From positions 1 to 32,823 of the IMG/VR virus record IMGVR_UViG_3300045742_000170: a stretch of DNA of 32,823 nucleotides; one strand, written 5' to 3'. The notes under the pieces are model-generated. The model was not told the DNA's origin. It searched no databases and saw nothing but the letters and a program-made list of their open reading frames with translations. Shown one piece after another: positions 2,336 through 29,500 of the stretch; within the stretch, counting starts at the first letter, position 1, and every line of letters begins with the position of its first letter. This DNA comes from a virus. The position numbers and the translations under genes were made by a program.

Positions 2336-3010
2336 ATGAATCAAATAAACTTACATACAATCGATTGGAAAAGAGTTCTAATATTTATTTTGACAATTTT
2401 TATCCTGTTATTAGTGTCTTTGAATTTTACTCAATGCGAAAATAACAAAACCTCATTAGCTAATATTGATGCTTTAAATTCTCAAATATCAACCTACAAG
2501 TTGAAAAACGGACAATTAGTAGCAATTTCAAAATCTCTTGTTTTAAATCAAAAGCAATTAGAAGATTTGGTATTGTCTAAAGATGCTGAAATGGAAGAAA
2601 TGGCAAAGCATTTTTCAAAAGTAAAAACAGTAACCAAAATTGTAACAAATACAATTATAGACAGCATTCCAATTCCTTATGAAGTAGAAGCTCCATGTGT
2701 ATTTGAGAAAACAGGAATTGTTGAAAATAAAAATTATAATTTAAAGTATTTCAGCAACCAAAAAGGGATTAGGATTGATTCATTGAATGTTCCAAACACA
2801 ATGACTTATGTTTCCGGAGTAAAGCGTAAGTGGTTTTGGGGAAAAGAAACCAACACAATAGATATTACAGCTTCAAATCCATTGGTAAAAATAGACAGCA
2901 TTCAACACATAGAAATTCAAGAACCAAAGAAATGGTATCAAACAAATGGTGCTAAAATGGGTGGTGCTGTGATAATTTTTGAAGTTTTAAAAGCAGTTTT
3001 AGTAAAGTAG
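2336..3010 (+). CDS. Membrane-anchored coiled-coil protein, spanin candidate
   Basis: 224 residues. The N-terminus has a cytoplasmic basic stretch, then one transmembrane helix (about 13-31, RVLIFILTIFILLLVSLNF), then a long polar coiled coil (about 35-100) with heptad-like Q/K/L/E spacing, a beta-rich middle (about 105-200) and a hydrophobic C-terminus (about 206-222, MGGAVIIFEVLKAVLV). Inner-membrane anchor plus periplasmic coiled coil right after holin and lysis-enzyme candidates fits an i-spanin or one-piece spanin that joins the membranes at lysis. The FTQC at 31-34 is not a proper lipobox. The hydrophobic tail is unusual for Rz proteins and could reach the outer membrane. Last gene of the lysis row; 45 noncoding bases follow. 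Confidence 0.5.
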   Translation: MNQINLHTIDWKRVLIFILTIFILLLVSLNFTQCENNKTSLANIDALNSQISTYKLKNGQLVAISKSLVLNQKQLEDLVLSKDAEMEEMAKHFSKVKTVTKIVTNTIIDSIPIPYEVEAPCVFEKTGIVENKNYNLKYFSNQKGIRIDSLNVPNTMTYVSGVKRKWFWGKETNTIDITASNPLVKIDSIQHIEIQEPKKWYQTNGAKMGGAVIIFEVLKAVLVK

Positions 3011-3055: not shown

Positions 3056-3661
3056 ATGAAGGGAATGCACGATTACATAGTTGAGGTAAAAGAAGCTTAC
3101 AACGAAAGTTTTAAAACAGAAAGCGGAGTTGAAATTTTTGCAGATAAAAGATTTAGTGCTGATAGATTAGCAAATAGATTAGCTAAGGTTATTAATGTTC
3201 CGGCTTTGCAAAATTCAATAATCAAAGAAGGATATGAAGTAATGGTTGATCCAACTATTTTCCTAAAGCAGAAATATGAAAAACATGCTGAAAACGATAA
3301 TGTTTTTTTACAAGATGCTAAAAAAGGGTGGTACAAAATACAACCTTCAATGATTGTTTTGTATAGAGAAAATTCAGAATCAGAATGGAAAGCTTTTGGT
3401 CAAAACTTATTGGTTGAGTTCATTAAAGAAATTGTTGATGAAAAAAAGATAGGAAGTATTGTTACTCAGTTACAGAAAAGCAAATATGTAGAAGGAGTTG
3501 CTAAGTTAGTTTTCTTAAATGAAGAAATGGAAGAAGATGGAGCAAAAATTAATGATACAATAGCCATTAAAAAAGGTTTTGGAGTTTCATTTTGGATAGA
3601 TGGTAAAGAGTTTTTCTGGATTAGAAACAGAGATGTTTTAGTAATTATTAACCAAAACTAA
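3056..3661 (+). CDS. Tandem GroES-like co-chaperonin candidate
   Basis: 201 residues that read as two divergent GroES (cpn10) folds in a row. Domain 1 (about 6-104): DYIVEVKEA strand, a mobile-loop-like TESGVEIFADK, AKVINVP, KEGYEVMVDPTIF matching the 'vkvGDkVlf' strand, and WYKIQPSMIVLYRE matching the closing 'eyliv.e.dIlavi'. Domain 2 (about 114-200): QNLLVEF, mobile-loop-like EKKIGSIVTQL, VEGVAKLVF, INDTIAIKKGFG, and IDGKEFFWIRNRDVLVII, a clear cpn10 ending. The order repeats in both halves. Normal GroES is about 95 residues, so this is double length, like plastid Cpn20. It would cap host GroEL and help fold phage head proteins, as T4 gp31 does; location before terminase, portal and capsid genes fits. 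Assignment is by motif, not search. A start at M4 is also possible. Confidence 0.6.
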   Translation: MKGMHDYIVEVKEAYNESFKTESGVEIFADKRFSADRLANRLAKVINVPALQNSIIKEGYEVMVDPTIFLKQKYEKHAENDNVFLQDAKKGWYKIQPSMIVLYRENSESEWKAFGQNLLVEFIKEIVDEKKIGSIVTQLQKSKYVEGVAKLVFLNEEMEEDGAKINDTIAIKKGFGVSFWIDGKEFFWIRNRDVLVIINQN

Positions 3662-3665
3662 GAGT

Positions 3666-3980
3666 ATGGAAAGTAATCAAAAACAAAGCTATTACAAAGA
3701 GAATCTGCCAAACCTTATAGATAGGCTAAAAAATTCAGTTGAAAAAACACTTGATATTATTGATAAGGATATAGCTGATGATTTAAGTGATGATAAATAC
3801 CTAAATGTTTTAAAAGCAAGAAGACAAGCTTCTGAAGATGTTATTTGGACATTAAAACGAATTGATGAATTAGAGAATGAATTATTGGGTATTGATGAAG
3901 TTGTAAACGAAGAAATTAAACAATTAGAACCTATAAATCCAACAAAGAAATTCGCAAGAAAAAAAGTTACAACTGAATGA
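3666..3980 (+). CDS. Small helical protein, small-terminase candidate
   Basis: 104 residues, charged and almost wholly helical (NLIDRLKNSVEKTLDIIDKD; ASEDVIWTLKRIDELENELL), with a basic C-terminal tail KKFARKKVTTE. The stop overlaps the large terminase start by 4 bases (ATGA at 3977-3980), the position in which phages usually encode the DNA-recognising small terminase. No helix-turn-helix is obvious, so the role rests on location and size only. It follows the GroES-like gene by 4 bases and belongs to that operon. Alternative: a terminase-associated helical cofactor. Confidence 0.4.
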   Translation: MESNQKQSYYKENLPNLIDRLKNSVEKTLDIIDKDIADDLSDDKYLNVLKARRQASEDVIWTLKRIDELENELLGIDEVVNEEIKQLEPINPTKKFARKKVTTE

Positions 3981-6208
3981 TATTCTATTTAGGAGATAAA
4001 GTTGAAGTCGAAGTTGAAGACAAAATACGTTTAGCTAAAAATAAAGCTAAATCGTGGGCCTATGGCTATAATGAAGCGATTGACACCGTTATAATCTCAA
4101 GAGATGGAACATTAGGAGAGGTTTATAGTATTTGTGGAATAAATATTGGTTTACCAGAAAAACCTAAACATGAAGATATAATAAACCATAATAAAACACC
4201 TCGTAATCAAAAATGGACTAGGCAAGATTTACCAGAAGGACTGAATGAAAATACAATGTACGATGCAAAGTATTCAGAATACATTGAAAGGGAGTTTGAG
4301 AGACGTGAAAAAGGCTTGTGGATTTATATAAATTCTCATCCAATTTGGATTCCAGGAACTTATTACTATGGTATTCAATGGGTAAAAGAAACTACTGAAT
4401 ATTCTAATTTTAGAAATATTCAGAATGAATTAATGATATTTTGGGAAGCTTGTAAGGCAGATGATAGATGTTTTGGAATGCAATATGTTAAAAACAGACG
4501 TATTGGAGCTTCATATCTAGCGATTATTGAACTTTTAGAATCTGGAACAATTAACGAAGATAAAATTTTAGGTATTATTTCTAAAAAAGGAGATGATAGT
4601 AAAAAGATTTTTAATCGTTTAATTAAAGGATTTAAGCGTTTACCTTGTTTCTTTCAACCTTTATGGGATGGAACAAATACACCTAAAAAAGAACTAATTC
4701 TCGATGTACCTACTAAAAGAAGAGCTAAGAATGAAATCATTAGGGATGATGGTTTAGGTTCAAGTATCTCATGGCACAATACCGAGATTAATGCAATGGA
4801 TGGTGATGCAATATTTCGTTCTCTTTTGGATGAGAGTGGTAAATACCCCCCAGATGTTCCTTTTGATAAATATTGGTACATTGTAAAAACATCACACACT
4901 AAAGGTGTTCGTATTACAGGGAAATCAATGGTAGTATCTACTGTAAATGCAAAAAAGAAAGGTGGAGCTGGTTATGAATCAATTTGGAATGATAGTGATG
5001 TAGAAGTTAGAGATGGTAATGGCCAAACTAAATCTGGATTGTATAGAATATTTATTGCTGCAGAATATTGTTTAGAAGGTATGTTTGATGAATTTGGATT
5101 TACAATTATAGAAGATCCAAAAGTATCAATAAAAACAGATGAAGGGAAACTTACCAAAATAGGTTCAAAAACTTGGTTAAAAAATAAAGCAGAATCATTA
5201 AAAGATGATCCGGAAGGATTAAACGAATTTAAAAGACAGTTTCCAGACACTATTCGTGATGCTTTTCGTGATGAAAGTGGTGAATGTGCTTTTAACTTAG
5301 TTAAGATTTTAGAACAAATAGACCATAATGAGTTTGAATTAAACGAAACTATTTATGGAAATGACTTAGTTGAAAGAGGTAATTTTTCATGGTTAGATGG
5401 AGAAATTGATACAGTTGTTAAATGGAATCCCGATCCTGCAAATGGAAGATTTTGGATAGCTAAAGATTGCCACCCACCTAAAGAACTACGAAATTTAAAA
5501 ACTAAAAAACTTATTAACGGAGTATTGGCTTTTGCACCGGTAAACGAACATATAGGCTGTTTTGGTGTTGATCCATATAATAGAAGTAAAACAGTTGATA
5601 GTCGTGGTTCTAAAGGCTCAATACACTTATCAACTAAATTCAATACAGGTCCGTTTCCAAATAACGCTTTTATATTAGAATACATTGATAGACCTGCAAA
5701 AGTTGAATTGTTTTTTGAAGATGTTTTAATGGCAATGGTTTACTATTCAATGCCAATGTTAGCAGAGCTTTCCAATGAAAAATTCTTATCAATGATTAGA
5801 GATAGAGGATATAGACACTTCTCATTAAATAATCCTTTTAAAAGCTATAAAGATTTAAGTGCTACTGAAAAGGAATACGGAGGAATGCCACCACAAGATA
5901 CGAAAATTGGAGAACAACAATTCTTTGCAATGGAAAGTTATATTCAAGACCATATTGGAATTGCAAGAGATAATTCAGAGAGAGAAGAAGGAACTATTGG
6001 TTTCATGCCATTTAACAGAACACTAATGCAACTAAAGGAAGTTGATCCAAACAATAGAACTAAGTTCGATGCCTACATTAGTGCTAGTTTATCAAGACTA
6101 GGAAATCAAAAAAAGATTAAAGAAGTAGTTGAAAAAACACCTATAAAACTAACAAGTATTTTTGGAACTTTTGACAATAGTGGAAATGTTTCTGTACCAA
6201 TAAGATAA
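3977..6208 (+). CDS. Large terminase (DNA-packaging ATPase and nuclease)
   Basis: 743 residues, long for TerL but usual for crAss-like and related Bacteroidota phages. The ATPase half has a Walker A-like loop at about 172-180 (KNRRIGASY, R/K-x-x-G-x-S type), Walker B with the catalytic acid at about 282-287 (SLLDES, D285 E286), and a coupling-motif candidate SMVVSTVN (317-324). The C-terminal RNase-H-like nuclease begins at CFGVDPYN (D532 likely metal ligand) and ends with KFDAYISASLSRLG, whose aspartate is the probable last metal ligand. It pumps DNA through the portal into the prohead and cuts concatemers. The protein starts inside the small upstream gene and is followed by a promoter region before the portal. 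Confidence 0.9.
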   Translation: MIFYLGDKVEVEVEDKIRLAKNKAKSWAYGYNEAIDTVIISRDGTLGEVYSICGINIGLPEKPKHEDIINHNKTPRNQKWTRQDLPEGLNENTMYDAKYSEYIEREFERREKGLWIYINSHPIWIPGTYYYGIQWVKETTEYSNFRNIQNELMIFWEACKADDRCFGMQYVKNRRIGASYLAIIELLESGTINEDKILGIISKKGDDSKKIFNRLIKGFKRLPCFFQPLWDGTNTPKKELILDVPTKRRAKNEIIRDDGLGSSISWHNTEINAMDGDAIFRSLLDESGKYPPDVPFDKYWYIVKTSHTKGVRITGKSMVVSTVNAKKKGGAGYESIWNDSDVEVRDGNGQTKSGLYRIFIAAEYCLEGMFDEFGFTIIEDPKVSIKTDEGKLTKIGSKTWLKNKAESLKDDPEGLNEFKRQFPDTIRDAFRDESGECAFNLVKILEQIDHNEFELNETIYGNDLVERGNFSWLDGEIDTVVKWNPDPANGRFWIAKDCHPPKELRNLKTKKLINGVLAFAPVNEHIGCFGVDPYNRSKTVDSRGSKGSIHLSTKFNTGPFPNNAFILEYIDRPAKVELFFEDVLMAMVYYSMPMLAELSNEKFLSMIRDRGYRHFSLNNPFKSYKDLSATEKEYGGMPPQDTKIGEQQFFAMESYIQDHIGIARDNSEREEGTIGFMPFNRTLMQLKEVDPNNRTKFDAYISASLSRLGNQKKIKEVVEKTPIKLTSIFGTFDNSGNVSVPIR

Positions 6209-6285: not shown

Positions 6286-8694
6286 ATGACAATGATTAAA
6301 TCTGTAAAAGGGAATCCAAACCCACTCGCTACTTTTGAAGAGAAAAAAAGTGATGAGTATGGTTTAAAAATTGCACAATTAATTAGTTCAGAATGGTTTA
6401 ATGGAAGTTTTGCAACATCTAAAAACTGTAATTTCTTAACAAGAAGGGATTATGTTAGAAACAAAAGACTTTTTGTAAGAGGTGAGCAAAGTATTGATGG
6501 TTATAAAACACATCAAGCTAGAGGTGATAACGACTTATCTTTTTTAAATTTAGATTGGACCAATATAAATTTAGTTGAGAAATTTTGTAGAATTGTATCT
6601 AATGGAATTTCAGATGAAAATTATAGACTAGATATTCGTGCTACTGATAGAATCACTTTAAAACTAAAAGAAGACAAAAAAGACCAATATCGTAAAGACT
6701 TAGCTTCTATGCCAATGCTTAAAAAAGCAAAAGAAGCACTTGGTATAGATTTGATGCCACAAGGTTTTGTTCCAGAAGACGAAGAGGAAATGCGTTTATT
6801 TTTAGAGATAAAAGACAGGCCTAAAGTTGAAATAGCAGAAGAAATATTGATTCAATACATAAAATCTTCTAATAATTGGGATTTTATTGAAAAGCAAAAT
6901 AATAAAAACTTAGTCGATTTAGGATTAGCAGGTATTCGAATTTTTACAGATAAAAATGATGGTGTTAAATTAGATTATGTTGATCCGGAACATTATGTTC
7001 ATAGTTATGTTAAGCGTAATGACTTTTCAGATAAATACTATGAAGGAGTTGTAGATACAATTACTTTGTCAGACTTAAAAAGAGAAAGTGATTTTACAGA
7101 TGTTCAATTACGACAAATTGCAAAAACATATAGCACCACAAATAACCTTTCTTTAGATTATAATAATTGCCCTATTGAATCAATTATTGATATTAAGGTA
7201 GATGTTTTAAGATTTGCATGGAAAACATCTAAAACAACTGTATTTAAACAAAAACTAAGAAAAGGTGAGGTTGTAAAGGTTTCAAAAAAGAATGAATTAT
7301 TTGAAGCACCAGATAGAGCAGATGTAGGGGTTTTATCTAAAACACTTGATACTTGGTTTGAAGGTAATTTTGTAGTTGGAACAAATGCAATTTATGGCTA
7401 CCAAGAATGCGAAAACTTAGCTAGAGATATAATGAATAAAGCTATGTCTCCATTTGTTTTCATGGCAACTGATATTTACGAAAACAAACCACAATCATTC
7501 TTAACTAAAATTGAACCTATTGCAAATCAAATGCAAAACATAGCTCTTAAACTTCAAAGTTTCTTAGCTGAATTAAAAGGTGATATTACAGAAATTGACT
7601 TAGATTTATTAGCAGAACTTGATGATGGTAAAGGTGGTGGAAAAAAAGAAGTTTGGCAAACAGCTTTAAAATTACTACAAGTTAAAGGAATTGTATTTAA
7701 GAAGCGTGTTGATATGGGAGAAATGGGAGTTAAAGAAGCTTCTGCAGTAAAAACATATCCTTCTGGAACAGGTGGACACATATCTTCTTTATTAAATGCT
7801 TGGGCGTTTAAGTATAATCTTATTAGAGATATTACAGGTGTAAATCCTGCTGCTGATGGTTCATTATCACAAGATGCTTTACTTGGTGTTAGTCAAATGG
7901 CAAAATTAGCTACTAATACAGCTACAAAACACATTGTAGATACTGCTGTAATGATCAACAAAAAGACTTGCGAAACTATATCTACTAGAATACATAGTAT
8001 TTATAAATTAAAAGAAGCAAAACACATACAAGAAATATATAATAACGTAGTTGGAAAACACTTATTAGATGCTCTTGATGTTCTAAAAGATAGACACTTA
8101 CATGAGTTTGGTTTTACTTTTGAAATGAAACCTACTACACAAGAATTGCAAGAGTTTAATGCAGATTTACAAATGGCATTGCAAGAAGGCAATATTAACC
8201 CAGAGGTTAAAATTGAAGCTTCAAGAATAGCTAAAGTAAATATTAAGTTAGCTACTGAGTATTTAATGTACCATAGAAGAAAACGCATTAAACAAATGCA
8301 AGAAGAGCAAATGGCACTTGCTCAAAATAAAAGCCAAAATGATGCAATGGCCGCACAAGCTAAAACACAAGCTGAATCTCAAAAATATCAAGAAAAATTA
8401 CAAGCTGATTTAGCATTTAAACAGCAATTAGTTCAAATAGAACTTCAAAAAGAAGCTGCTTTATTGGAATTAAAAAAACCTTATGAAGAAGAGAAGTTTA
8501 ACAGAGAACTTTATTTAGAACAAGTAAGAGGTGCAGGTAAGGTAGATATGGAAACATTTAAGGAAAACCGTAAAGATGAGCGTACAAAACTACAAGCATC
8601 TCAACAAAGTAAGATATTGGAGCAACGCAATAAAGATGGAGAGCCAATAGACTTTAAAAATGAAAATAACTTTCAAGATTTATTAAACACTTAA
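6286..8694 (+). CDS. Portal protein (crAss-like type)
   Basis: 802 residues. The segment DNDLSFLNLDWTNINLVEKFCRIVSNGISDENY (about 75-108) is the kind of 'fLNlDW..i.iv.kf.riv.g' block that I associate with portals of crAss-like and related Bacteroidota phages. The middle is alpha/beta with ENLARDIMNKAMSPFVFMATDIYENKPQSF around the stem and crown transition. The C-terminal 130 residues (from about 665) are a Q/K/E/A-rich coiled coil (QMALAQNKSQNDAMAAQAKT and on), longer than a minimal portal. It forms the dodecameric DNA gate at one head vertex and nucleates assembly. MTM start; the first ATG follows the conserved TTTTTTGAT leader. First gene of its own operon, right after terminase. Confidence 0.85.
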   Translation: MTMIKSVKGNPNPLATFEEKKSDEYGLKIAQLISSEWFNGSFATSKNCNFLTRRDYVRNKRLFVRGEQSIDGYKTHQARGDNDLSFLNLDWTNINLVEKFCRIVSNGISDENYRLDIRATDRITLKLKEDKKDQYRKDLASMPMLKKAKEALGIDLMPQGFVPEDEEEMRLFLEIKDRPKVEIAEEILIQYIKSSNNWDFIEKQNNKNLVDLGLAGIRIFTDKNDGVKLDYVDPEHYVHSYVKRNDFSDKYYEGVVDTITLSDLKRESDFTDVQLRQIAKTYSTTNNLSLDYNNCPIESIIDIKVDVLRFAWKTSKTTVFKQKLRKGEVVKVSKKNELFEAPDRADVGVLSKTLDTWFEGNFVVGTNAIYGYQECENLARDIMNKAMSPFVFMATDIYENKPQSFLTKIEPIANQMQNIALKLQSFLAELKGDITEIDLDLLAELDDGKGGGKKEVWQTALKLLQVKGIVFKKRVDMGEMGVKEASAVKTYPSGTGGHISSLLNAWAFKYNLIRDITGVNPAADGSLSQDALLGVSQMAKLATNTATKHIVDTAVMINKKTCETISTRIHSIYKLKEAKHIQEIYNNVVGKHLLDALDVLKDRHLHEFGFTFEMKPTTQELQEFNADLQMALQEGNINPEVKIEASRIAKVNIKLATEYLMYHRRKRIKQMQEEQMALAQNKSQNDAMAAQAKTQAESQKYQEKLQADLAFKQQLVQIELQKEAALLELKKPYEEEKFNRELYLEQVRGAGKVDMETFKENRKDERTKLQASQQSKILEQRNKDGEPIDFKNENNFQDLLNT

Positions 8695-8705
8695 TATTTA
8701 TAAAA

Positions 8706-9122
8706 ATGACTGATCCAGAAGAATTAAAAAAATCAAAAGCAGAACAAGACAGAAATAGTAAAGTTACTGCACTTTCTAAAACTGAATCTTACAAAGAAGA
8801 AGCAGAAGAAAAAAAGAGACTAAAGCTTGACGATAATGGTAAAGCTAGACCTATTATTCAAAGAAGGAAAATACAAATAGCCAAAAAAGGAAGTGGTAAG
8901 AAAACACGAATTTTTGGAGAAGATGGAAAAGTACTTTATGAAGCTACACCTGGAACTGCTAAAGAAAGGGAAATGTTAAGAAGACATAGAAACCAAGAAG
9001 CAAATACAAACAATTCAAGACAGAAGAATGCGGATGTTATGAATTACCAAACAGGAGATGAAAAGGGTAATAGAGTATATGAAGAAAGAATAGCTATTCA
9101 AAAAAGAAGAGATGCTAATTAG
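8706..9122 (+). CDS. Small charged phage protein of unknown function
   Basis: 138 residues, about half of them K, R, E, D, Q or N and nearly free of aromatic residues: MTDPEELKKSKAEQDRNSK, EEKKRLKLDDNGKARPI, then a short likely beta hairpin RKIQIAKKGSGKKTRIFGEDGKVLYEATPG (about 52-82) and a charged tail. It follows the portal by 11 bases and is co-transcribed. Not recognised. Low-complexity charge suggests a disordered head-assembly or nucleic-acid-contacting protein, but that is a guess. The last codons (RDAN, stop) lie inside a 32-nt perfect palindrome, so the convergent minus-strand gene ends with the same four residues. Confidence 0.6.
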   Translation: MTDPEELKKSKAEQDRNSKVTALSKTESYKEEAEEKKRLKLDDNGKARPIIQRRKIQIAKKGSGKKTRIFGEDGKVLYEATPGTAKEREMLRRHRNQEANTNNSRQKNADVMNYQTGDEKGNRVYEERIAIQKRRDAN

Positions 9123-9134
9123 CATCTCTTCTTT
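9103..9134. terminator. 32-nt perfect palindrome, bidirectional terminator candidate
   Basis: AAAGAAGAGATGCTAA (9103-9118) is followed directly by its exact reverse complement (9119-9134). In RNA it gives a GC-containing stem of up to about 14 bp with a run of U after it on either strand. It contains the stop codons of both convergent genes, each TAG. Location between convergent operons supports termination in both directions. Confidence 0.65.
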
Positions 9135-9495
9135 CATAAAATATAGTAGTTTCTTTTCTTTTATTATTTACTATCATTAAACCTCTATTTTTTTTATCCG
9201 TAAAGGTATAAGCTTGTTCTTCTTCACCATCCATCATGATTATATAGGTATCACTTTCATAGCCTGTATCTTCTGCTTTTAATGTTTTTATAATTTTACT
9301 TTTTGTCCAATCAATATCACTTTTAATATAAAAATAACCATTTTCTATATATATAGACATGTTTGTAGTTACATCCATAGAAGAATGAGTATCTTTTTTT
9401 TTATTCAATAAAGACATTACACTTACATCTTCTACTAAAATTTGAGAAATTCCAAAGAAAGGAATTAATAACAGGATAATAATTAATTTTTTCAT
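9115..9495 (-). CDS. Small secreted protein in the head gene cluster (moron-like)
   Basis: 126 residues on the opposite strand to the structural genes. The N-terminus MKKLIIILLLIPFFGISQI is a textbook Flavobacteria signal peptide (K-K, hydrophobic core, cleavage near GIS-Q). The mature part (about 107 residues) is beta-rich with DVTTNMSIYIENGYFYIKS and SDTYIIMMDGEEEQAYTFTD, no cysteines and no known motif. It is monocistronic, set between portal and scaffold operons, and shares a palindromic terminator with its convergent neighbour. That is the classic layout of a moron: a host-altering gene expressed apart from lytic genes, for example for envelope modification or exclusion. Function unknown. 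A weak minus-strand promoter may lie around 9522-9555 (TACTTTAG with TTG 15-23 bases upstream). Confidence 0.7.
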   Translation of the reverse strand: MKKLIIILLLIPFFGISQILVEDVSVMSLLNKKKDTHSSMDVTTNMSIYIENGYFYIKSDIDWTKSKIIKTLKAEDTGYESDTYIIMMDGEEEQAYTFTDKKNRGLMIVNNKRKETTIFYERRDAN

Positions 9496-10914: not shown

Positions 10915-12270
10915 ATGGCTTTTGATTTAAGAACCAACAATTTAACAGGAGTTGCACTTATCGACCAACCAGGTGGTGTTTCTGCAACTTCAGAGAATTT
11001 TATCTCAGCGTACACATACGCACAACAGTATCAGCCAGAATTAATCCCACAATTGCACTACGCAAATGGATTGGGTAAGATTACTGACTTTTTGAAAATG
11101 ACAAGTGTAGAAGACACTTATGCTTCTGACCAAGTTCAGCACATGGAGACTAATCGCCTTCACAACATCTTAAAAAATGTAGCAGTTACAGCTAGTACAT
11201 TTACTTCTCCAACAAATCACAATTTAAGAGTTGATGATGTTGTTTTGATTTCAGATGGTGTTATTGAAGCACAAGCTATTGTTTCAGCTATTACTTCTGC
11301 TACAATATTTGTGGTAGAGTATGATGATGCTACACCTTCTTTTGCAGGTAATGTAGATGTTTCTGCTGACTTCTCTAGTAGATTTAACAAAGGAACAAAC
11401 CCTTTTGAAACAGGAAAAAATTGGAATCCTACACCTTATGTGAATTACACTCACATTATCAAGGAAACTTATGATATTTCTGAAAGTAACATGGCTCACC
11501 AAAATTGGGTAATGACACCTAATGGACCACGTTGGTTTAACTTTGAAATGGAGCGTACAGGAACTTTATTTGACAATAAAGTTGAATTAACTATGCTTTT
11601 ACACCGTAGAGCTACTGATGCTTCTGCTTCTGCTGTTGCAGGTAAAGCACAAGGTATGAAAGGTGTTGTTCAGCAAATTGAAGAAAGAGGTAACTTAATC
11701 AATGATTATATTACTTCAGTAGATGATTTATCTGATATTGCTTTAAGAGCAAAACAACAAGGTAATTGTCGTGAATTTACTGTATGGGCTGACCACAAGC
11801 AAATGGCTTACTTTAGAGTATTGTCGGCAGGTGTGAACGCTTCTTTTGTGAATGGTGCTAATTATGGTATGTTCCAAAACAGTAAGGAAATGGCATTAAA
11901 ATTAGACTTCTCTTCTATATTAGTAGATGGAGTTACTTTCCACTTTACGCCTTGGAGATTATTAGATGATCCTACAATCTTAGGTTCTTCTAAATTCTTA
12001 TTAACTGCTCCTGCATTTATTATCATCCCAACAGGTATGACAGAAGTGTATGAAGAAGGAAATGCTAAATCTAAACCTTACTTATCTGCTCGTTACAGAA
12101 AAGATGGTAATGTAGATAGAAAAAGACAAGTTAAAATATTCGGTTTAGGTGGTACGCCACAAAAAGCGGATAAAATGACTGCTAACTTCTTATCTGAAAT
12201 GACAAACCAAGTAATTGGTGCTAATTGTTATTTCGTAGGTAGAAGAGGTGCTGCTTTCTATACAGCCTAA
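10915..12270 (+). CDS. Major capsid protein (HK97 fold, crAss-like type)
   Basis: 451 residues. An N-terminal arm (1-50), E-loop-like region (PQLHYANGLGKITDFLKMTS), a beta-rich insertion at about 91-152 (TSPTNHNLRVDDVVLISDGV...TIFVVEYD), then the P/A domains: MAHQNWVMTPNGPRWFNFEMERTGTLFDNKVELTMLLHR, FTVWADHKQMAYFRV, and a C-terminal SARYRKDGNVDRKRQVKIFGLGG...FLSEMTNQVIGANCYFVGRRG. The length, the place after the scaffold and before a strong terminator, and the balanced low-charge composition all fit a main coat protein of short-tailed Bacteroidota phages. It forms the icosahedral shell. No cleavage site or separate protease is evident, so maturation without proteolysis is possible. The insertion may be a surface decoration. 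Confidence 0.85.
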   Translation: MAFDLRTNNLTGVALIDQPGGVSATSENFISAYTYAQQYQPELIPQLHYANGLGKITDFLKMTSVEDTYASDQVQHMETNRLHNILKNVAVTASTFTSPTNHNLRVDDVVLISDGVIEAQAIVSAITSATIFVVEYDDATPSFAGNVDVSADFSSRFNKGTNPFETGKNWNPTPYVNYTHIIKETYDISESNMAHQNWVMTPNGPRWFNFEMERTGTLFDNKVELTMLLHRRATDASASAVAGKAQGMKGVVQQIEERGNLINDYITSVDDLSDIALRAKQQGNCREFTVWADHKQMAYFRVLSAGVNASFVNGANYGMFQNSKEMALKLDFSSILVDGVTFHFTPWRLLDDPTILGSSKFLLTAPAFIIIPTGMTEVYEEGNAKSKPYLSARYRKDGNVDRKRQVKIFGLGGTPQKADKMTANFLSEMTNQVIGANCYFVGRRGAAFYTA

Positions 12271-13450: not shown

Positions 13451-13765
13451 TTAATTTTCTATTGTTTCTAAAGATTCTACTAATGTAGAAATATCAATAT
13501 CATTTAATTCAGAGCAGTCTTGTATCATTTGGAATACTTTAGGTAAATCTTCTTTTCTAAAAGCAAATCTATCTAATCTGAAGCAATTATAAGGAAAGTG
13601 CATTGATAAATCTCTTTCAGCTATTTCTGCTCCTTGAATACCAGGTTGTTGAATTTGTTTAAATATATGCGTAATGTGGTATGTTTCATTCTTAACAATC
13701 CACTTATTTTGTGGTATTTGAATTGGTTTTTGTGTATCATCTACACACATACATTTAATTTTCAT
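13451..13765 (-). CDS. Small phage protein, 'MKIKC...IP..KW' type, unknown function
   Basis: 104 residues. Opening MKIKCMCVDDTQKPIQIPQNKWIVKNETYHITHI, then QQPGIQGAEIAERDLSMHFPYNCFRLDRFAF. This is a pattern I have seen in many small Bacteroidota phage proteins (short beta-barrel, possibly SH3-like), usually in early gene clusters, without known function. Three cysteines in the first half (C5, C7 and one near 60) could bind metal, but there is no full finger. It overlaps the gene upstream of it by 11 bases and so forms a two-gene minus-strand operon inside the plus-strand late region. Expression before late genes or in the lysogen is inferred from opposite orientation. Confidence 0.65.
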   Translation of the reverse strand: MKIKCMCVDDTQKPIQIPQNKWIVKNETYHITHIFKQIQQPGIQGAEIAERDLSMHFPYNCFRLDRFAFRKEDLPKVFQMIQDCSELNDIDISTLVESLETIEN

Positions 13766-13967
13766 TTTCTACTAATTCTTTAATTATTTGACTATTTAGG
13801 TAGTTGAAATAAAACATTCTTTCAAATACATTATAACCTACTTCTTTTGCTTTTTTATAACCTTTTTCTATTGCTAGTCGGTTTTGCTTTTTTCTTATTC
13901 TAAAACGCTGTACAGAATTTAATTCTTTGTAGGCTTTTGTATTCTCTATTTTGTTTTTGAATTGCAT
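13755..13967 (-). CDS. Small basic helical phage protein of unknown function
   Basis: 70 residues, strongly basic in the first 45 (KAYKELNSVQRFRIRKKQNRL, KGYKKAKEVGYNV) then aromatic (FERMFYFNYLN). It looks like two amphipathic helices, consistent with nucleic-acid or host-protein binding, but no named motif is present. First gene of the minus-strand pair; its ATG is 130 bases from the divergent connector gene, and the 14010-14035 dyad sits between them, so one regulator could act on both directions. I found no clear minus-strand TAnnTTTG box. Confidence 0.55.
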   Translation of the reverse strand: MQFKNKIENTKAYKELNSVQRFRIRKKQNRLAIEKGYKKAKEVGYNVFERMFYFNYLNSQIIKELVENEN

Positions 13968-15655: not shown

Positions 15656-18600
15656 ATGCCTATTACAAGAAGAAATTTCCTAAAAGGGATAATGGACCAA
15701 GATACAGATGAAAGACTATTACCAGATGGTGTTTATAGAGAAGCAGAAAATGTTTTAATTGTAAATTCCGAAGGTTCTGATGTGGGTTCTATTGAAAATT
15801 CGTTGTCAAACAAACAACTTACTAATTTAGATTTAGGTGAAAACCCTAAGTGTTTACTTGGTTTTAATGATGGGTTTGAAGATAAGCTATATTGGTTTAT
15901 CAAATCTGATTCTGGATGTTTTTTATTAGAGTGGGATAATAAAAATGAAGTTGTTTCTATTGTTTTAAAAGACACAAGAACAGAAGACGTAGATAGGGTT
16001 TTAAATTTAAAAGAGGATAAACTTATCACAGGTATTCACAAGATTATAAATGAAGATCCAAAAAAGAATTTATTTTTATGGACAGATGATAATATTCAAC
16101 CTTGTTGTGTAAATATTGAAAGAGCAAAGGCGTATGGAGAAAATGGTTTTGATAAAGAGGACATCTATTTAATTAAAAAACCACCAAGATACGCTCCAAC
16201 AATAATTCCAATAACACTAAACGACCAAAGTAATAATATGGAGGACCGTTTTTTTACTTTTTCTTATAGATTTAAGTATTTAGATGGTGAATATTCTGCT
16301 TTGTCTGATTATACTAATTATGTTTTTACACCAAAAGAATTTCAGTTAGATTACCTTACTTTGGATAACTTAGGTATGGTAAATAATTTCAATGCTGTAA
16401 AATTGTTTTTTGAAACAGGAGATAAAAGAGTTACAGATATTCAGTTAGTTGTTAAGAATAGTAATTCTAATAATCTTTATGTAATTCAAAATTTCAATAA
16501 GTCAAAAGAAGGTTGGTTAGATAATGTTCAAAAGTCATATATATTCTCAAATAATAAAACATACGCTGTTTTACCAGGTAAAGAACTTTATAGAGCTTTT
16601 GATAATGTTCCTTTAAAGGCAAAAGCAATGACTTTTATAGGAAACAGGCCTATATTTGGTAATTATTTAGAAGGATATAACTTAATTGATCATAGTGGGA
16701 AAAAAATTAATATTGATTTTTCAGTTTCATTAATAAATGAAAACATTTCTACTTCATTTGATTTTGAAGCAATTGTTGTTTCTTTAAATACTTTAGAATT
16801 AGATAACACAGAAAATTATGAATTAACAACTGGTTCTACTATTAATTTAAATTTAAATATTCTTTTAGATTCAACAAATGATGTTTATAGTAACTCATTT
16901 TCTTTAATACTAGAAAATGATTATGCTTCATTAGTTGATTTTGGTAACTCAGAAGAGTTTCAAACATTTTTTGAAATTATACGTTCAGATTATGTAATAA
17001 ATTATAATTCTAATTCTGCTTACGATGTTCCAGATGGTTGGGTTGTAACTATTGAAACAGATTTAACCTATTCTATTGTTGGAGATAAAATAGTCATAAG
17101 TGTTACTGATGTAACTTTTGAAGATACTCTTGATGCAAATACAGAACATATAATAGCTGCATCATTTTCAGAACAAAGTTCTTTTGACATTAATTATAGT
17201 TCAAATTCTTCAAGTTGTAAAACAAATAGAGATTATGAAGTAGGTATTATTTATGAAGATGAATTTAATAGAAGAACAACAGTATTAACTTGCCCTTACA
17301 ATACTATTTACATACCTCAGAAGTATTCTATTTTTAAAAACAGAATAAAAGTTAATATTAATAATAAACCACCATATTGGGCCGATAGATATAAATTAGT
17401 ATTTAAAGCAAGTCCTTTACAATATGATACAATTTATATAAATGAATTTTACAATGAAGATTTCTATGTATGGTGTAGGCTTATTTCTGACAATAAAGAT
17501 AAGATAAAAATTGGCGATGATTTAATTGTAAAAAGAGCCGGAAATCAATTAATTAATGAGCCTATAAAAATAAAGGTTTTAGATATTGCAGAGAGAGATA
17601 AAGATTTTATTATTGACAATAAAGATTCTAAAGGACTTGATATAATAGAACCTAAAGGTGTTTATATGCAAATAAACCCAAATGGTTTTTCAATGGATTA
17701 TGAAGATTTTAAAGTATTTAAAGATAGTAAAAATGGAAAAGCAAGTAGAGGTAATTATCCTACTGTTTTTTTAGATTTATTTTCTGAAGAAACTTCACCA
17801 GATGTTTATGAAGATTTTGCATTGCCACAAGGAAGTTCAGTTATTATTGATTTAAATAGTTCATTTAAATATGATGTAGGTTGGAGAAATTTAGATTATA
17901 AAAAAGAATATTTTTGTAAAAGAGACTACGCTAATTTAGAAGAATTTTATAATGAAATTATCTTAAATAAAAACCTATACGCAACAGATAACCTATTTAA
18001 TGAGGTTAAAAACTATAAAGATAATGTAGAACTAATAAGAGGTTTCCCTGTTTTATTAAGCATAGGTGTTGGAGTGCAAGATAGAATTATTAATATAACC
18101 CCAGATCCATTAGGTAAATTATATTTAAAAGTAAAAGGACTTGAAAGTGGCGGTTCTGGTGGTAGATATGGTAGAGTATATGCAAAGATAACCGTTAGAA
18201 CGTCTATTGGTGTTTATGTTTTTGAGACTATACCAAATAATTCAAGTAATAATACTTACTATGAAACAGCACAAACTTTCGATATTGTAGATGGTCAACA
18301 TACTGGTAATTTACAAAATCAAGAATTAGATTCTTTTTTACCTGCAATTGTAGATTCTGATTTTTTCAACTGTTACACACAAGGAAATGGGGTTGAAAGC
18401 TATAAAATAAAAGATGGTTTTAATAAAAACTATTTAAATATAGATTTAAGGCCAAGTGCAACTTCAGTAGAAGAATATGCAGAAATAAGAAGGTTTGCGG
18501 ACCTTACTTATGGAGAACCATATAATGAAAGTTCAAATATTAATGGACTTAATGAATTTAACTTATCTACTGCTAATTTTAAGCAAATAGATAAGATTTA

Positions 18601-20314
18601 TGGAAGTATTCAGAAGTTACATAGTAGAGATAATGATATTCTTGTTTTACAAGAAGAGAAGGCTTCTAAGGTATTATTTGGAAAAGATGCTTTATATAAT
18701 GCAGATGGTAATTCTAACTTAACTTCATTACCAGAGGTTTTGGGAAGCCAAGTAACTTATTTAGGAGAAAATGGTATTTCAACAAATCCAGAATCTTTTG
18801 CAATAAATGATTATCAAATATTTTACACAAATGCTAGAAGAGGATTAGTTCATAGATTATCAATAGATGGAGTTACGCCTATTGTTAATTTTATGGGAGA
18901 CTTTTTTAGAGATTTATTTAGACAACAACCAAAATCTAAAAAAGTAGCCGCTTTTGATCCTTACCATAATCAATACATTTTATCTGTTGACGATGAACCT
19001 GCTACTATTTTAAGTTTAGGTTGTGATAATACTATATTTAAAAAAAACATTACAACTTCATTTACTTACAATTTAACTATAAATGATTTAGAGGGAGATA
19101 TAGTTTTAAATTATGATATATCATTGGGTAATGCAACAATAACAGCTTTATTTGATGGAGACATATTTGTAGAATCAAACGTAACCGGATTAGGAACTAT
19201 TACAATTCCTAGAGACAATTTAAGTGAAAATATAGTAGTTATAACAATTACACCTGTAACTGAAATTGTAGATTTTGAAATATCAAATGTTTGTCCTACT
19301 GGTATTCCAATGAAAGTAATAGAAATTGTACTAAGCGATTCTTTAGATTTAAACAAAACTATTACAAATAGATACAGATGGGGTAATTCAAATTTATTTA
19401 CTGAAAATGATGTATTAAGTGAAGGACCAATATCAAGATTTACTGAAAAAATAGGAATTGAAGGAGTTGGTAGTTTTCCTAAAGATGGTAGTGTAGTTAG
19501 AATTGATTCATTTAAATCAAATAGCGATACAGGAAGATTAAATATACCAGAACAATGTAATCGTTTAGGATATTTAATTACAAGTTCTGTTTATACTAAT
19601 TTAGATATTGAAACTATACTTGACCAAGCTACTTTTTTAGAAGTTACATCACAAACTATTTCATTAAATTCTTTTTTAGAATATGGTAGTTTCTTATTTG
19701 ATAGAGCAGTAGGAGATGAGAACTTATATTTAATTTGGGATTATACAAATAGAAAGCCAATAGCAGTTGATGATTATACAAGCACACCTAAAGGAACGTC
19801 TAAAAATATAGAAGTGCTATCTAACGATACTGATCCTTTATCACTTCCATTAACAATAACTATAATTTCTGGACCTACAAATGGTTTGGCTATAATTGAA
19901 GCAGATAACACTATAACATATACTCATAATGATACTGACACTTATACAGATGTTATAGTATATGAAATTTCAAATGGGATATGCTCAACACAAGCTACTA
20001 TATACATAGATATTGCAGTTGCATGTGATGGAAGTTTCTCATATACTGGTGCTGTTGGAATATTTAATCTTCCTATTTCTTACGGAACTGAAATAGGTAC
20101 TTGTGGTATTTCTTATGAAGCTTTTTCAATAGCGGATAAATTTGAAATTTATTGGGATGGAAACTTAGTCGCTACAACAGGAACAGAAGTTAGTGGTTCT
20201 GGAACTATTACTTTTGAAAAAACAGCAGCAACACCAACTCAAGCTACAATTGTAGTAACAGCAACAACAAGCGATACTAATTGGGAAATAACAGGTATTT
20301 GTCCTATACCATAA
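15656..20314 (+). CDS. Tail hub ('muzzle'/nozzle) protein with adhesin-like C-terminus
   Basis: 1552 residues, almost all beta. The start (RRNFLKGIMDQDTDERLLPDGVYREAENVLI) is the usual entry of podovirus nozzle proteins of T7 gp12/crAss muzzle type, followed by propeller-like repeats (FEDKLYWFIK, KKNLFLWTDD, SNNLYVIQNF). Residues about 1020-1110 (GSIQKLHSRDNDILVLQEEKASKVLFG and YQIFYTNARRG) continue the tail fold. Extra domains are added: a beta-sandwich (about 1121-1213, ending SNVCPTG), a cadherin/VCBS-like Ig domain (about 1366-1455: AVDDYTSTPKG, EVLSNDTDPLSLPLTI) and a second copy of the sandwich at the C-terminus (about 1456-1552, ending TGICPIP). It forms the tail channel; the added domains may bind the cell surface. 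The next gene appears to be its detached C-terminal partner. Confidence 0.75.
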   Translation: MPITRRNFLKGIMDQDTDERLLPDGVYREAENVLIVNSEGSDVGSIENSLSNKQLTNLDLGENPKCLLGFNDGFEDKLYWFIKSDSGCFLLEWDNKNEVVSIVLKDTRTEDVDRVLNLKEDKLITGIHKIINEDPKKNLFLWTDDNIQPCCVNIERAKAYGENGFDKEDIYLIKKPPRYAPTIIPITLNDQSNNMEDRFFTFSYRFKYLDGEYSALSDYTNYVFTPKEFQLDYLTLDNLGMVNNFNAVKLFFETGDKRVTDIQLVVKNSNSNNLYVIQNFNKSKEGWLDNVQKSYIFSNNKTYAVLPGKELYRAFDNVPLKAKAMTFIGNRPIFGNYLEGYNLIDHSGKKINIDFSVSLINENISTSFDFEAIVVSLNTLELDNTENYELTTGSTINLNLNILLDSTNDVYSNSFSLILENDYASLVDFGNSEEFQTFFEIIRSDYVINYNSNSAYDVPDGWVVTIETDLTYSIVGDKIVISVTDVTFEDTLDANTEHIIAASFSEQSSFDINYSSNSSSCKTNRDYEVGIIYEDEFNRRTTVLTCPYNTIYIPQKYSIFKNRIKVNINNKPPYWADRYKLVFKASPLQYDTIYINEFYNEDFYVWCRLISDNKDKIKIGDDLIVKRAGNQLINEPIKIKVLDIAERDKDFIIDNKDSKGLDIIEPKGVYMQINPNGFSMDYEDFKVFKDSKNGKASRGNYPTVFLDLFSEETSPDVYEDFALPQGSSVIIDLNSSFKYDVGWRNLDYKKEYFCKRDYANLEEFYNEIILNKNLYATDNLFNEVKNYKDNVELIRGFPVLLSIGVGVQDRIINITPDPLGKLYLKVKGLESGGSGGRYGRVYAKITVRTSIGVYVFETIPNNSSNNTYYETAQTFDIVDGQHTGNLQNQELDSFLPAIVDSDFFNCYTQGNGVESYKIKDGFNKNYLNIDLRPSATSVEEYAEIRRFADLTYGEPYNESSNINGLNEFNLSTANFKQIDKIYGSIQKLHSRDNDILVLQEEKASKVLFGKDALYNADGNSNLTSLPEVLGSQVTYLGENGISTNPESFAINDYQIFYTNARRGLVHRLSIDGVTPIVNFMGDFFRDLFRQQPKSKKVAAFDPYHNQYILSVDDEPATILSLGCDNTIFKKNITTSFTYNLTINDLEGDIVLNYDISLGNATITALFDGDIFVESNVTGLGTITIPRDNLSENIVVITITPVTEIVDFEISNVCPTGIPMKVIEIVLSDSLDLNKTITNRYRWGNSNLFTENDVLSEGPISRFTEKIGIEGVGSFPKDGSVVRIDSFKSNSDTGRLNIPEQCNRLGYLITSSVYTNLDIETILDQATFLEVTSQTISLNSFLEYGSFLFDRAVGDENLYLIWDYTNRKPIAVDDYTSTPKGTSKNIEVLSNDTDPLSLPLTITIISGPTNGLAIIEADNTITYTHNDTDTYTDVIVYEISNGICSTQATIYIDIAVACDGSFSYTGAVGIFNLPISYGTEIGTCGISYEAFSIADKFEIYWDGNLVATTGTEVSGSGTITFEKTAATPTQATIVVTATTSDTNWEITGICPIP

Positions 20315-23595: not shown

Positions 23596-26500
23596 ATGCA
23601 AGAAACAAATCCGGCACTAGAGAACGCTTATAAATTAGCGAAATCAAAAGGTTATAAGAAAGATATTACTGAGTTCACTACATTAATATCTTCAAATGAG
23701 GATGCTTTAAATAATATATATAAATCTGTACAGTCTAAAGGTTATAAAAAATCTATTGATGATTTTAAGCAACTTATTGGTATTTCTGACGTAAAAAAAA
23801 AAGAAAATTCATCTTCTTCTACGACAAACGAAAAATCGGTTTCGAAACCTCAAAATGGTTCTTCGGATGGAAAAGGATATGATGAAATTTCAGAAAAATA
23901 CAACTTTACCAATACTAAAACACCAGAGATAAAGGAAAGTAAACTTGAAAAACAAGGTGTAAAACACATAAATCAAGAAGATATTATAGCTCAAAAAGAA
24001 CAACCTTTAAAAACTCAAATAAAAAAGGATAACATTGAACTTGGTATTGGAGTTAAAACTGAAGAACAATTAGCAGAAGAAAAAACTAAAAAAGAAGCAT
24101 TAATAAATTCTTTTAACGAAAACACAATAGTTTCAGATGATTTTATAAGTGATATTTCTACTGATTTTGATGAGAAACTAAATCAAACAGGAGTTTGGAA
24201 TGGAATTAAAACAGGCCTAAAGTCAACTTGGAATAAAGTAATGCCTTATTTACCTGGAAGTCCTAATGATAAAGATGTTAGGAAAAATTTAGAATTTGAA
24301 TTAGATCCTTTGGCTGATGTAAAAAAAGAAGCTAAAAAAAACTTATTAGATAGTGGATTAAAGGAAGAAGATATTACAGAGCAAAAAATAAATGAAATTG
24401 CAAAGAAAATTTATGTAAACAAAGAGTTGTCGGATAAACGCATTTCATTGAGTAATGACTATTTAGAAGGAATATCTGATGATGATAGAAAGATATTAAA
24501 AGCAGATAAAAACCTTCAATTAGAAAGCATTTCTTTACAAGATAAAAAGCTTTTAAATACAATAACACTTATTGACAATAACCTTGAAAAAGATTATAGC
24601 GAATTAAGTGATTTAATTGAAATAAGTAAAAATGGCGGTTTGTCTCAAGAAGAGATAAAAAGAGTTACACAACTTCAAGATGTGTTAGAAAACAACTTAA
24701 AAAATCGTCAAGAAATTTATTCTAAATACTCAAACAACAGCAAAGAATTAGGTACAGTACAAGAGGAATATGATATTTTAAAAAGGAATTATGGCTCTTT
24801 AGAAAATTTTGGTCTAAAAATAGGTCTTGGAGTAGCTAAAATTACAACAGGTTTAGCACAAAGTTATAACATGGTTCTAGGTGATGATAAAGATAAAAAA
24901 GAAGTTGCTGATATTCAAAAGGCAATAGATGAGGTTTTACAAGAGGAGATTCAAAAAGAAACTCAAGAAGTAAGAAGCTTTAATGATGTAGTTGATTATG
25001 TGTCTGATTTAGTTGGAAATCAAGCACCAAACTTAGGTTTAATGTATTTAACAGGTGGTGGTTCTAGTATGGTAAAACCATTATCTAGTATTGCAGCGTA
25101 TTCCGTAGGTAATAAATACTCAGAATTAGAAAATGAAAACAACTATGGAGAAGGAAATTATACTAAATCAGAGATGTATGTAGCATCACTTGTTTCCGGA
25201 GGTGCTGAAGCTATTGAAATGAATACTTTAAGAATGCTTGGTGGTGGTAAAAGACTTGTACAAAGTACTTTATCTAGCACACCTACAAGAGAATTATTTA
25301 GAAAGAGTATTGGAAAGAAACTACAAAGTGCATCTTCTGAAACCTTTAAAAATGTTAAAGGAGAAATACTTGAAGAGGAATTAACTAATGTGGTTCAAAA
25401 TTTTTCTGACAGGTATATTCTTGGTGATAAATCTGTGGGTATTTTGGACAACTCAATTAAAGTGGCCAAAGATGCTGCTTCTATGTCTATCTTAATGACT
25501 TCTTTTCCTGCTGCTGCATCTGCAGTAATAAAGCCATTTGTACCAAAATCTTATGTTGAGGTTTTAGATAAAAACACAAAACGAATAGCTGAAATACAAG
25601 AAATTTTAAACAATCCTAATCTTAGTGAAGAGACTAGAAAAGAAGGGAATAAATTACTAAAAGAATCTATTGATAATAACAAAAGAGGTTTAAAAGAAAT
25701 AATATTAAATACATCAAAGTTAGACGATTCTTTTGTAGAAAAAGTTATAGAGTTAGAAACTAAAAGTTCTGAAATTAGAAATAAAGCAAATGCTATTTCT
25801 AATGACAAATCTATTTCAAAAAGTCAAAAAGAATTTTTACTAAAAGAACTTCAAACAGAATATAATTCAAGTGAAAATTTGCGTGAAAAAATTAATTCTG
25901 GAAAAGCTACAAAATTAGACTTGTTAGACGAAAAAGAAGTTTTAAAACTAAAAGACAAAGCCGGAAAGCAATTAATAAAAGAAGCTGAGGAAAGTGGTAA
26001 GAAAGAAGCATCATTTAACGATGAGCAAATTACTAAACGTGCTTTAGAAATTTATAATGAAACTAAACCTAAAAAAGAAATAAACGAACCCATTGTAGTT
26101 AATAAAACTACAACAGATACTAAAGAACAGGCAACAAAAGTTAAACCTGCTCCTAGTATTTCTTTAGATGAAAGTTTAAGCGAAAATAATAATCCAAATC
26201 AAATAACAAATGACCTTTCAAATAAATCTATTGAAGAATTAGAGAAAAGAAAGTTTGAATTAGATGAAAAAGGATTTAGAAGCTTAACAAAAGAAAGTGA
26301 TGAGTATAATAAAATTGATAAAGAATTAGAGAAAAAAGAATGGCAAAGTGTATTAGGAAGTCCTTTATCTGAAGTTGAAAAAGTTATTGATGACCTTATA
26401 GAAAAAGATAAAGAAATGCCTAATGGTTATGGTTCTTACATAGAGAAAAGAGATGCTAGAGAATCTAAGGAAATAGTCGCTAAATATAAAGGAGAAGTAA

Positions 26501-29500
26501 GTAAAAAAGAATCTATCAAAGATTTTAAAGATGCTTTTTTTGGAAACCCAGATACTTGGTATGCTGATGCTTTAAAAATGAGAGAATCAGTACGTTCATT
26601 TATTGAAAAAGGAGGAACATTTAAGGAATTACTTAAATCTGTTCAAAAAGAATTTGAGAGTGATGGATTTTCTGAACAAGATGCAGCAGGTGTAATAAAC
26701 AGCAAATTAAGTAAAATAGCTAAAACAAATGAAAGCACACAGACAGAAGATATTGTTACTGATGGAAACATTCAACCTAGAGTTGAACCAATGGGAGAGT
26801 TGGCAGAAAGTAAACCAACAACAACCAACGCTATTGAAGAAGAAAGTGTTTCCAATACCAATGAGCCTAAACCAAGTGAAGGAAAGCCTAAAGTAACAAC
26901 TAAAGAAGTTGTTGTTCCTGGATTTGCAAATAGAGAATCTACTTATGATGTAGATATGGACTATGATGGTAATATTACTGAAATTAGAAGTAAAAAAGAT
27001 GGTAGAGTTATTAATGAATTTGTAGAGTATACTTCTACAAAAATAGATAAAAAAACAAAACTAAAAGTTACAAAAAAAGGGATAAGAAAAAATGCTAATT
27101 ATGCTAAAATTGAATCTGCAGCGTTAGGTATTAAAACTGAAAACCAACAAAATATAAATAATAAAGAATTTATAAGTAACTTTGAACCTACTAATGAGTA
27201 TGATGCTGCTTTAAAATCACTTGCATCTGGTGATAAAGTTTCTCCAAAATCATTACAGTCAGAATTAGGTAATTCAGATAGTTCTTGGGCCACAAATAAA
27301 TCATCTAAGGAAACATTACCAAGCGTTGAAGCTTTAGCAGAACAAATTTGGGAATCTAATCCAAATTTTGATGTTCAAGAAGTTAGAAATGCTTTAATTG
27401 ATATTATTGGTTCACACGCAAACCTTAATAGCGTTAAAGAAAGTCTTTTAGATGCTCATAAAGAGAATGTTAAGAGAATTGAAGAACAAGAAATTAGTAC
27501 TTACTTAGGTAGTTTATCTGAGCAAGAATTAGCTATGTATGAGACTGTAAAAGCAGAGGATGATTACATTTCTGAACTTACAGATGATGAAGCACAAAGA
27601 TATTATGAACAAGAATATAGAAAAAACACAGGGAATTATGAAAACGAACAAGGAACAACCAAAAATGACGAGATCGGAATTACTAAAAGCGAAAGCGTTC
27701 AAGAAAGTAATGGAAGAGAAAAATCAGAACCAAGAGCAGTCGAAGAAAAAGTAGTTGAACAATCAATAGATAAAGTTTTTTCTAAAGAAACAGTTGAAAG
27801 TTTAGAGAAAGCAAACAAACCAGATGTACTTGATTTCTTAGACAGTTTAAAACTTGATCCAAACGATTTAAATGCTACACTTCCATTTTTACCACAAACT
27901 TGGAACTTATTTATTGATGCAATAAAACTAGCTTATAAAGGTGGTAAAACTATTGCAGAAGCTATTGAAATAGCAAAACAAAAACTTATAGATAAAGGAA
28001 TTTCTAACAAAGAAATTAATGCTGTAATTGAGTTCTTTAATAAGAAAGCTCAAAAAACAAACACATCTGATTTTAAAAGAAAACCAGGGCAACGCTCATT
28101 ACTTCAAAGACTACGAAATGGAGGTAATGAAGATATTGTAAACAGAGTTATTGATAGAATTGGATTGACTTATGAGAAAAACAATCAAGAGAAGACTTAT
28201 GCAGATGCGGTAAACTTTGTTGAAGAAGTTGGAATTGCAGAAGCGTATAATGCTATTAAAGAGGGTAAAATTAAAAATCCTGCTGCTGTTACTGTTATTT
28301 ACGCAGAATTAATAGAAAGACTTCCAAGAGAGATTGAAAATGCACTAAGCACAATTACAGATAATGATGCTTTACTTGAAGCTACAAAAGAGTTTGATGC
28401 TTATTTTGAAGACATAATTAATGAATATGCAACTAGAGCAACTGAATTTGGTCAAGCTAATTCTATACTTAACTACATTTACAATAAAGCACAAACTGTA
28501 AGATATTCTCTTTCTAAGCAAGTTGAAATTCATAAATCTATAAACGGAGGTAAAGTTGATCCAGAAACAATGGAAAAACTAAAAGAACTTGAAGCAAAAT
28601 ACAAAGAAGCAGTTGAAAATATTAAGCAATTAGAAGAGAAAAATGAAGCTATTATTGCTCAACAAGCTTTTGAAAGAATTATTGAAGAGCAAAAGCGTAA
28701 ATTAAACATTGGAAATAAAAGACCTAATTCAGCTCAAGCTAAAAAGGTAGCGGAAAGTGTAAGGAAATTAAAAATAAATAGACCTGGTGTTTTTAAATCA
28801 TCAACCGGAGCAGATTTAGTTTGGGATGGTGCAGTAGAAATTGTTGCTAAATCTATTGAAACTACTGGAAGAGTTGCAGATGCTATTAATGAGGGAATTG
28901 ATTTCATTAAAAAATCTAATTGGTATAAAGGATTAAACAACCAAGAAAAACAATTAGCAGAACAACAATTTGTTGAATCTTTTGAAGGTATTTCAGATAG
29001 TAATTCTCTTAATAATGAGATTGCCATTGATAAAAATGGAGATATTAAAGTTTCTGGAAAGGTTTTAACAGATTTTGTTAAAGATGGTGGAACGGATGTA
29101 AATAACTTGGTTGATATTATCAAAAAAGAAATTGAATCTGATTATCCTCATGTTTCAAAACGAGAAATTCGTGATGCTATTACAGGATATGGAAAGAGAG
29201 CAAATAAAAATAAATCTCAATTAAGAGAAGATATTTCTAGGCTTAAAAATTTAGGAAAACTTGAAAGTGAACTTGAAGATGTTCAAAAAGGTATTGCTAA
29301 AAACAAAGGAAGTAAAGCTTCTAAAAGAAAATTGTCTGACAAAGAAAATTTACTAAAAAAACAGATAAAAGGACTTCAAGATAAACTAGGTATTACTGAA
29401 AAAGAACGTACTGAGCGTTCTAAAGAATACACTAAAAAAAGAATTGAAGAAATTAAGAATAAAATTAAAAACGGTGATTTTTCTAAAAAGGAAATAAAAC

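Follow-up and report, generated by a model that had tools for sequence, protein, structure and literature searches.

A putative two-domain GroES-type co-chaperonin encoded ahead of the terminase gene in podoviruses related to Pachyviridae

Introduction

Proteins that carry two cpn10 domains in one chain have been described from chloroplasts and apicoplasts, and how a two-domain subunit can serve a seven-fold ring is considered a puzzle (PMC5780408). The co-chaperonins of Chlamydomonas are active only as mixtures (PMC4242682), and in the structure 7ekq one Cpn11, one Cpn23 and two Cpn20 chains together provide seven domains. Arabidopsis Cpn20 is active as a tetramer, and GroEL also works in vitro with lids in which six or eight domains are linked (PMC5780408). 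Among phage proteins, T4 gp31 is a co-chaperonin without roof loops, which is thought to aid folding of the larger gp23 (PMC6318259).

Chaperonin genes have also been reported from phages related to the one analyzed here. A cpn10 chaperonin is reported to be a core gene of Pervagoviridae (PMC8776804), GroEL homologues are present in phi38:1-like marine genomes (PMC5332604), the GroEL of phi38:1 was detected in infected cells (PMC13288928), and phage Panino carries both GroEL and GroES (PMC11590407). Here we describe a phage protein that is predicted to consist of two cpn10 domains and is encoded upstream of the gene for the large terminase subunit (terL).

Results

The analyzed stretch of viral DNA (the window) is a 32.8-kb fragment that starts 3 kb upstream of the gene under study. 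This gene (positions 3056 to 3661, plus strand), referred to below as the tandem gene, starts with ATG and encodes a protein of 201 aa. A first-pass annotation had given exactly these coordinates and this length, and all the motifs that it quoted were found in the protein. Residues 1 to 198 matched the full-length profile of phrog_13932, "co-chaperonin GroES" (2.9e-51), and all 54 aligned homologues matched PHROG 13932 as well. The family is thus already named, as co-chaperonin GroES, in PHROG and in RefSeq. The Pfam model Cpn10 (PF00166) covered only residues 112 to 197 in the C half, with 19.6 bits, below its curated cut-off of 21.1. Some relatives scored above the cut-off, and 17 of 19 family members matched PF00166 at an E value of 0.1 or better. 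A phmmer search of the PDB with the single protein yielded chance matches only.

The C half (residues 109 to 201; positions 3380 to 3661, plus strand) was readily connected to GroES by profile methods. Its profile matched GroES chains in the PDB (approximately 5e-6) and a GroES profile (P 4.5e-9). Together with the GroES matches of the full-length model described below, these data identify the C half as a cpn10 beta-barrel.

For the N half (residues 1 to 107; positions 3056 to 3376, plus strand), hmmsearch of its profiles against the PDB gave no cpn10 match, even with 54 sequences. Since the Pfam and PDB sequence searches detected the C half only, we considered an unrelated N-terminal domain, with cpn10 limited to the C half. 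Against this, the N-half profile scored 34.2 (P 1e-5) with a GroES profile built from the single GroES proteins of related phages and from cellular GroES, exceeding all of 150 column-shuffled versions (maximum, 17.9). The alignment was collinear, beginning at residue 1 and passing the loop and the next strand before reaching the GD-type strand. Furthermore, when the N half was predicted alone from the 54-sequence alignment (pLDDT 82.7), the top 20 PDB fold matches of the model were exclusively GroES/cpn10 structures, including T4 gp31. The best match had a modest E value (2e-3) and a probability of 1.00, and GroES-like domains of alcohol dehydrogenase-type enzymes came next. A different fold for the N half was rejected on the basis of this stand-alone prediction and its PDB matches. 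In addition, the match of the full-length model to Cpn20 (see below) extended across both halves, and we regard an unrelated N-terminal domain as extremely improbable. The predicted structure and the profile comparison give good support for a cpn10 barrel in the N half.

The AlphaFold2 model of the full-length protein, based on a 19-sequence alignment, had a pLDDT of 76 and a pTM of 0.73, with low-confidence stretches at residues 14 to 18, 28 to 38 and 75 to 78. Its best PDB match was 7ekq_R, the Cpn20 chain in the Chlamydomonas Clp complex (214 columns aligned with a chain of 194 residues; E 2.3e-5, TM 0.56/0.58, rmsd 7.1), followed by GroES. The model thus gives good support for a Cpn20-like architecture, in which two cpn10 domains are arranged head to tail in one chain. 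In line with this, the proposal of two fused GroES domains in the first-pass annotation agrees with both the profiles and the predicted structures, and the structure prediction it had suggested as a check returned a cpn10 fold for both halves, with a region resembling a flexible mobile loop. When the two halves were compared with each other, the score was 22.0, a value reached by 1 of 150 shuffled versions (maximum, 24.8). This comparison is weak, and a recent internal duplication is therefore unsupported. Each half is closer to single GroES than to the other half.

Both halves contain a stretch corresponding to the mobile loop of GroES. In the N-terminal domain it comprises residues 12 to 42 with the motif GVEIF (positions 3089 to 3181, plus strand), and the low pLDDT at residues 14 to 18 and 28 to 38 falls into it. 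In the C-terminal domain it comprises residues 124 to 147 with the motif GSIVT (positions 3425 to 3496, plus strand). The stretches are 31 and 24 residues long, respectively, versus 23 in E. coli GroES; among the 54 homologues, most have a shorter C loop, with a median linker of 18. The N-loop motif is kept in these homologues as a hydrophobic-acidic-hydrophobic pattern (V/I, D/E, F/L), and two to three hydrophobic residues are retained in the C loop (e.g., LILPDT in L006). The middle residue is V in the IVL motif of GroES but acidic (D/E) in the N loop of the tandem protein. With this acidic residue in the N motif and, in most relatives, a C loop below the length found in GroES, binding by one or both loops may be poor. 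Furthermore, the sequence KTESGLLLS in the single GroES of the phages resembles KTESGVEIF in the window protein. The segment corresponding to the roof of the GroES dome is shortened to 8 and 10 residues in the two halves, and the single GroES of the phages has a 9-residue gap in this segment compared to cellular GroES.

The family is widespread: the tandem gene was found at no fewer than 584 IMG/VR loci, and homologues are present in Cellulophaga, Flavobacterium and Maribacter phages. Proteins of the same family and length are encoded at the same place before terL in the Cellulophaga phages phi18:3 (gp096) and phi38:1 (gp089), in the Flavobacterium elemo phages and in Maribacter phage Panino. 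The window protein is 36% identical to its phi18:3 homologue and represents a diverged member; otherwise, nothing essential differs. In RefSeq and PHROG, the annotations of the Cellulophaga, elemo and Panino relatives do not state the two-domain nature. The present analysis corrects these annotations, in that genes listed as plain GroES are predicted to encode two-domain proteins.

A location just ahead of the terminase gene had been pointed out in the first-pass annotation, and it was borne out by the relatives: terL was downstream on the same strand in 112 of 112 tested loci, in 111 of them within 1 kb. In the window, the tandem gene is followed by a gene for a 104-aa protein (positions 3666 to 3980, plus strand; phrog_20415, 1.1e-22), whose place is held in phi18:3 by gp097. 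Then come terL (positions 3977 to 6208, plus strand; phrog_6681, 6.2e-209) and the portal protein gene (positions 6286 to 8694, plus strand; phrog_6547, 1.5e-194). The window TerL shares 60% identity with its counterpart in phi18:3 (Pachyviridae), and the source phage is a marine podovirus related to the Pachyviridae of flavobacteria. A virion protein of 451 aa, not unusually large, is encoded at positions 10915 to 12270 and is plausible as the likeliest capsid candidate. The large coat protein supposed in the first-pass annotation finds no support in this candidate. The phi18:3 annotation contains a mass spectrometry-based list of virion proteins, in which neighbors of the tandem gene are flagged and its own product is absent. 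This absence would be less expected of a virion part than of a chaperone.

Several other features of the region were observed. Directly upstream of the tandem gene, positions 2336 to 3010 encode a 224-aa protein matching Pfam DUF6549 (8.5e-8). The portal gene is followed by an open reading frame for 138 aa without matches (positions 8706 to 9122); in phi18:3, an annotated exonuclease follows the portal gene (L003, positions 17702 to 19195). Small open reading frames without family matches lie on the minus strand at positions 9115 to 9495 and 13451 to 13967, positioned like the minus-strand genes gp102 and gp106 to gp109 of phi18:3. Positions 15656 to 20314 and 23596 to 31110 code for two virion-type proteins of very large size, 1552 aa (phrog_14478) and 2504 aa (phrog_22602), respectively.

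Six genome-contig matches to the tandem gene were located on contigs of metagenome-assembled genomes (MAGs), several of them from unlikely hosts. The contigs carrying the tandem genes L121 to L125 had been binned to Pseudomonadales, Aliivibrio and an unclassified bacterium, and in one Aliivibrio MAG tandem genes were present on three separate contigs. These MAG contigs probably are misbinned phage contigs rather than host or prophage DNA.

We then considered the partner genes in near-complete records, defined as those of at least 56 kb. This set of 19 records with a tandem gene comprised phi18:3, phi19:3, phi46:3, phi13:2, phi38:1, MW202828, elemoE and Panino, along with G003, G008, G011, G012, G017, G023, G024, G025, G028, G029 and G030. 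Records below 52 kb without a single GroES (G026, G027, G031, G033 and others) are fragments and were not scored as absent, and the MAG results L121 and L126 were left out of the count, as whole bacterial genomes had been searched there. A separate single-domain GroES was present in 19 of the 19 records, a count that overstates the number of independent events because several of the records are closely related. This co-occurrence of tandem and single genes in all near-complete relatives is a new observation. In the papers searched, which covered only a minority of subscription journals, we found no description of the two-domain nature or of the pairing; priority for these observations is not certain. 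A phage GroEL was encoded in 14 of the 19 records, usually adjoining the single GroES (e.g., L031 to L039, L127 to L136 and L141 to L149). The five records lacking GroEL were G003 and the four phages of the phi18:3 type, the closest near-complete relatives of the window. In the related Tenacibaculum phage Gundel, a tandem gene ahead of terL was missing, as was any Pfam match to the two chaperonin families, but as one negative control this phage carries little weight.

Neither a single GroES nor a GroEL is encoded in the 32.8-kb window. In phi18:3, the single GroES gene, gp080, lies approximately 10 kb upstream of the tandem gene; because the window is a fragment, any single GroES of the source phage probably lies outside it.

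Discussion

We infer with good support that the tandem protein functions as a co-chaperonin in the lid of GroEL. Our main reading, to which we assign a probability of about 80%, is that it is a two-domain GroES-type co-chaperonin that forms part of this lid, with three tandem chains and one single-domain GroES proposed per ring. Late in infection, the tandem protein would serve in the detachable lid of the GroEL ring. Each cpn10 half would contribute its own GroEL-binding loop, so that one chain could fill two neighboring positions of the seven-fold ring. We hypothesize that the full lid consists of three tandem chains and one single-domain GroES, the gene for which is located elsewhere in the genomes of the near-complete relatives; with seven domains, all ring positions would be filled. 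The first-pass annotation had noted that a ring of seven domains needs an odd count, and the separate GroES of every near-complete relative may meet this need. Since six- and eight-domain lids work in vitro, the 3+1 composition is not required. The shortened dome-roof segments in both tandem halves and in the single GroES could, as in T4 gp31, create an open-topped, roomier chamber. Virion proteins are suggested as clients by the place of the gene among head genes and by the gp31 precedent.

The idea of a takeover of host GroEL, raised in the first-pass annotation, proved too narrow for the family, as 14 of the 19 relatives encode a GroEL of their own; it may apply to the closest relatives of the window, which have none. 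In window-type phages without GroEL, the host GroEL would be the partner, whereas for the phi38:1, elemo and marine types it is more likely the phage-encoded GroEL.

The composition of the lid could also differ. The single gene adjoins GroEL and the tandem gene lies next to terL, and these different locations would suit a lid of six or eight domains built from three or four tandem chains alone, with no single GroES in it. The phage would then have two distinct lids, of which one might, for example, be produced early alongside GroEL and the other late with the head genes. The activity of Arabidopsis Cpn20 tetramers and of six- and eight-domain lids (PMC5780408) is compatible with this arrangement, but the co-presence in 19 of 19 records and the need of the Chlamydomonas co-chaperonins for mixtures (PMC4242682) favor a mixed ring, leaving a lid of tandem chains possible but doubtful. 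We consider it unlikely that a cpn10-fold protein was recruited for a different task during head assembly or packaging and plays no part in a GroEL lid: the hydrophobic motifs of the mobile loops are conserved, the phi18:3 annotation does not mark the protein as part of the virion, and the tandem gene is always accompanied by a single GroES and usually by GroEL, while Gundel lacks all three. Such a task would nevertheless explain why the gene lies next to terL in all 112 loci, and it would fit the divergence of the loops and of the N half, which is too divergent for ordinary searches. The acidic middle residue of the N-loop motif and the short C loop of many relatives might even suggest a decoy or inhibitor that blocks host GroEL. 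This is very unlikely, since the GroEL encoded in 14 of 19 relatives and the canonical single GroES point to folding, and gp31 provides a precedent for assistance (PMC6318259).

Under the main reading, a co-chaperonin in a mixed GroEL lid, this widespread phage family would offer an independent and experimentally simple system for studying how seven positions are filled and what effects an asymmetric lid has. Cultured phage-host pairs are available for Cellulophaga phi18:3 and phi38:1.

Among known systems, E. coli GroES (1aon) shares the barrel, the strand order and the mobile loop with the tandem protein but is a single domain with a full roof hairpin and the canonical IVL motif. T4 gp31 (1g31) is likewise a phage co-chaperonin of cpn10 fold, was matched by the N half and lacks roof loops; unlike the tandem protein, it is a single-domain protein that forms a homo-heptamer. 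Plastid and apicoplast Cpn20 (e.g., 7ekq_R) also has two cpn10 domains per chain and single-domain partners, whereas the tandem protein is phage encoded, has shortened roof segments and is only approximately 14% identical to it. The tandem form in phages and in Cpn20 is probably convergent. The proposed 3+1 cap would be comparable to the CPN11/20/23 system of Chlamydomonas, and we tentatively suggest, at slightly less than even odds, that it evolved in a sizeable group of Bacteroidota podoviruses apart from plastids, as an asymmetric lid on an often phage-encoded GroEL.
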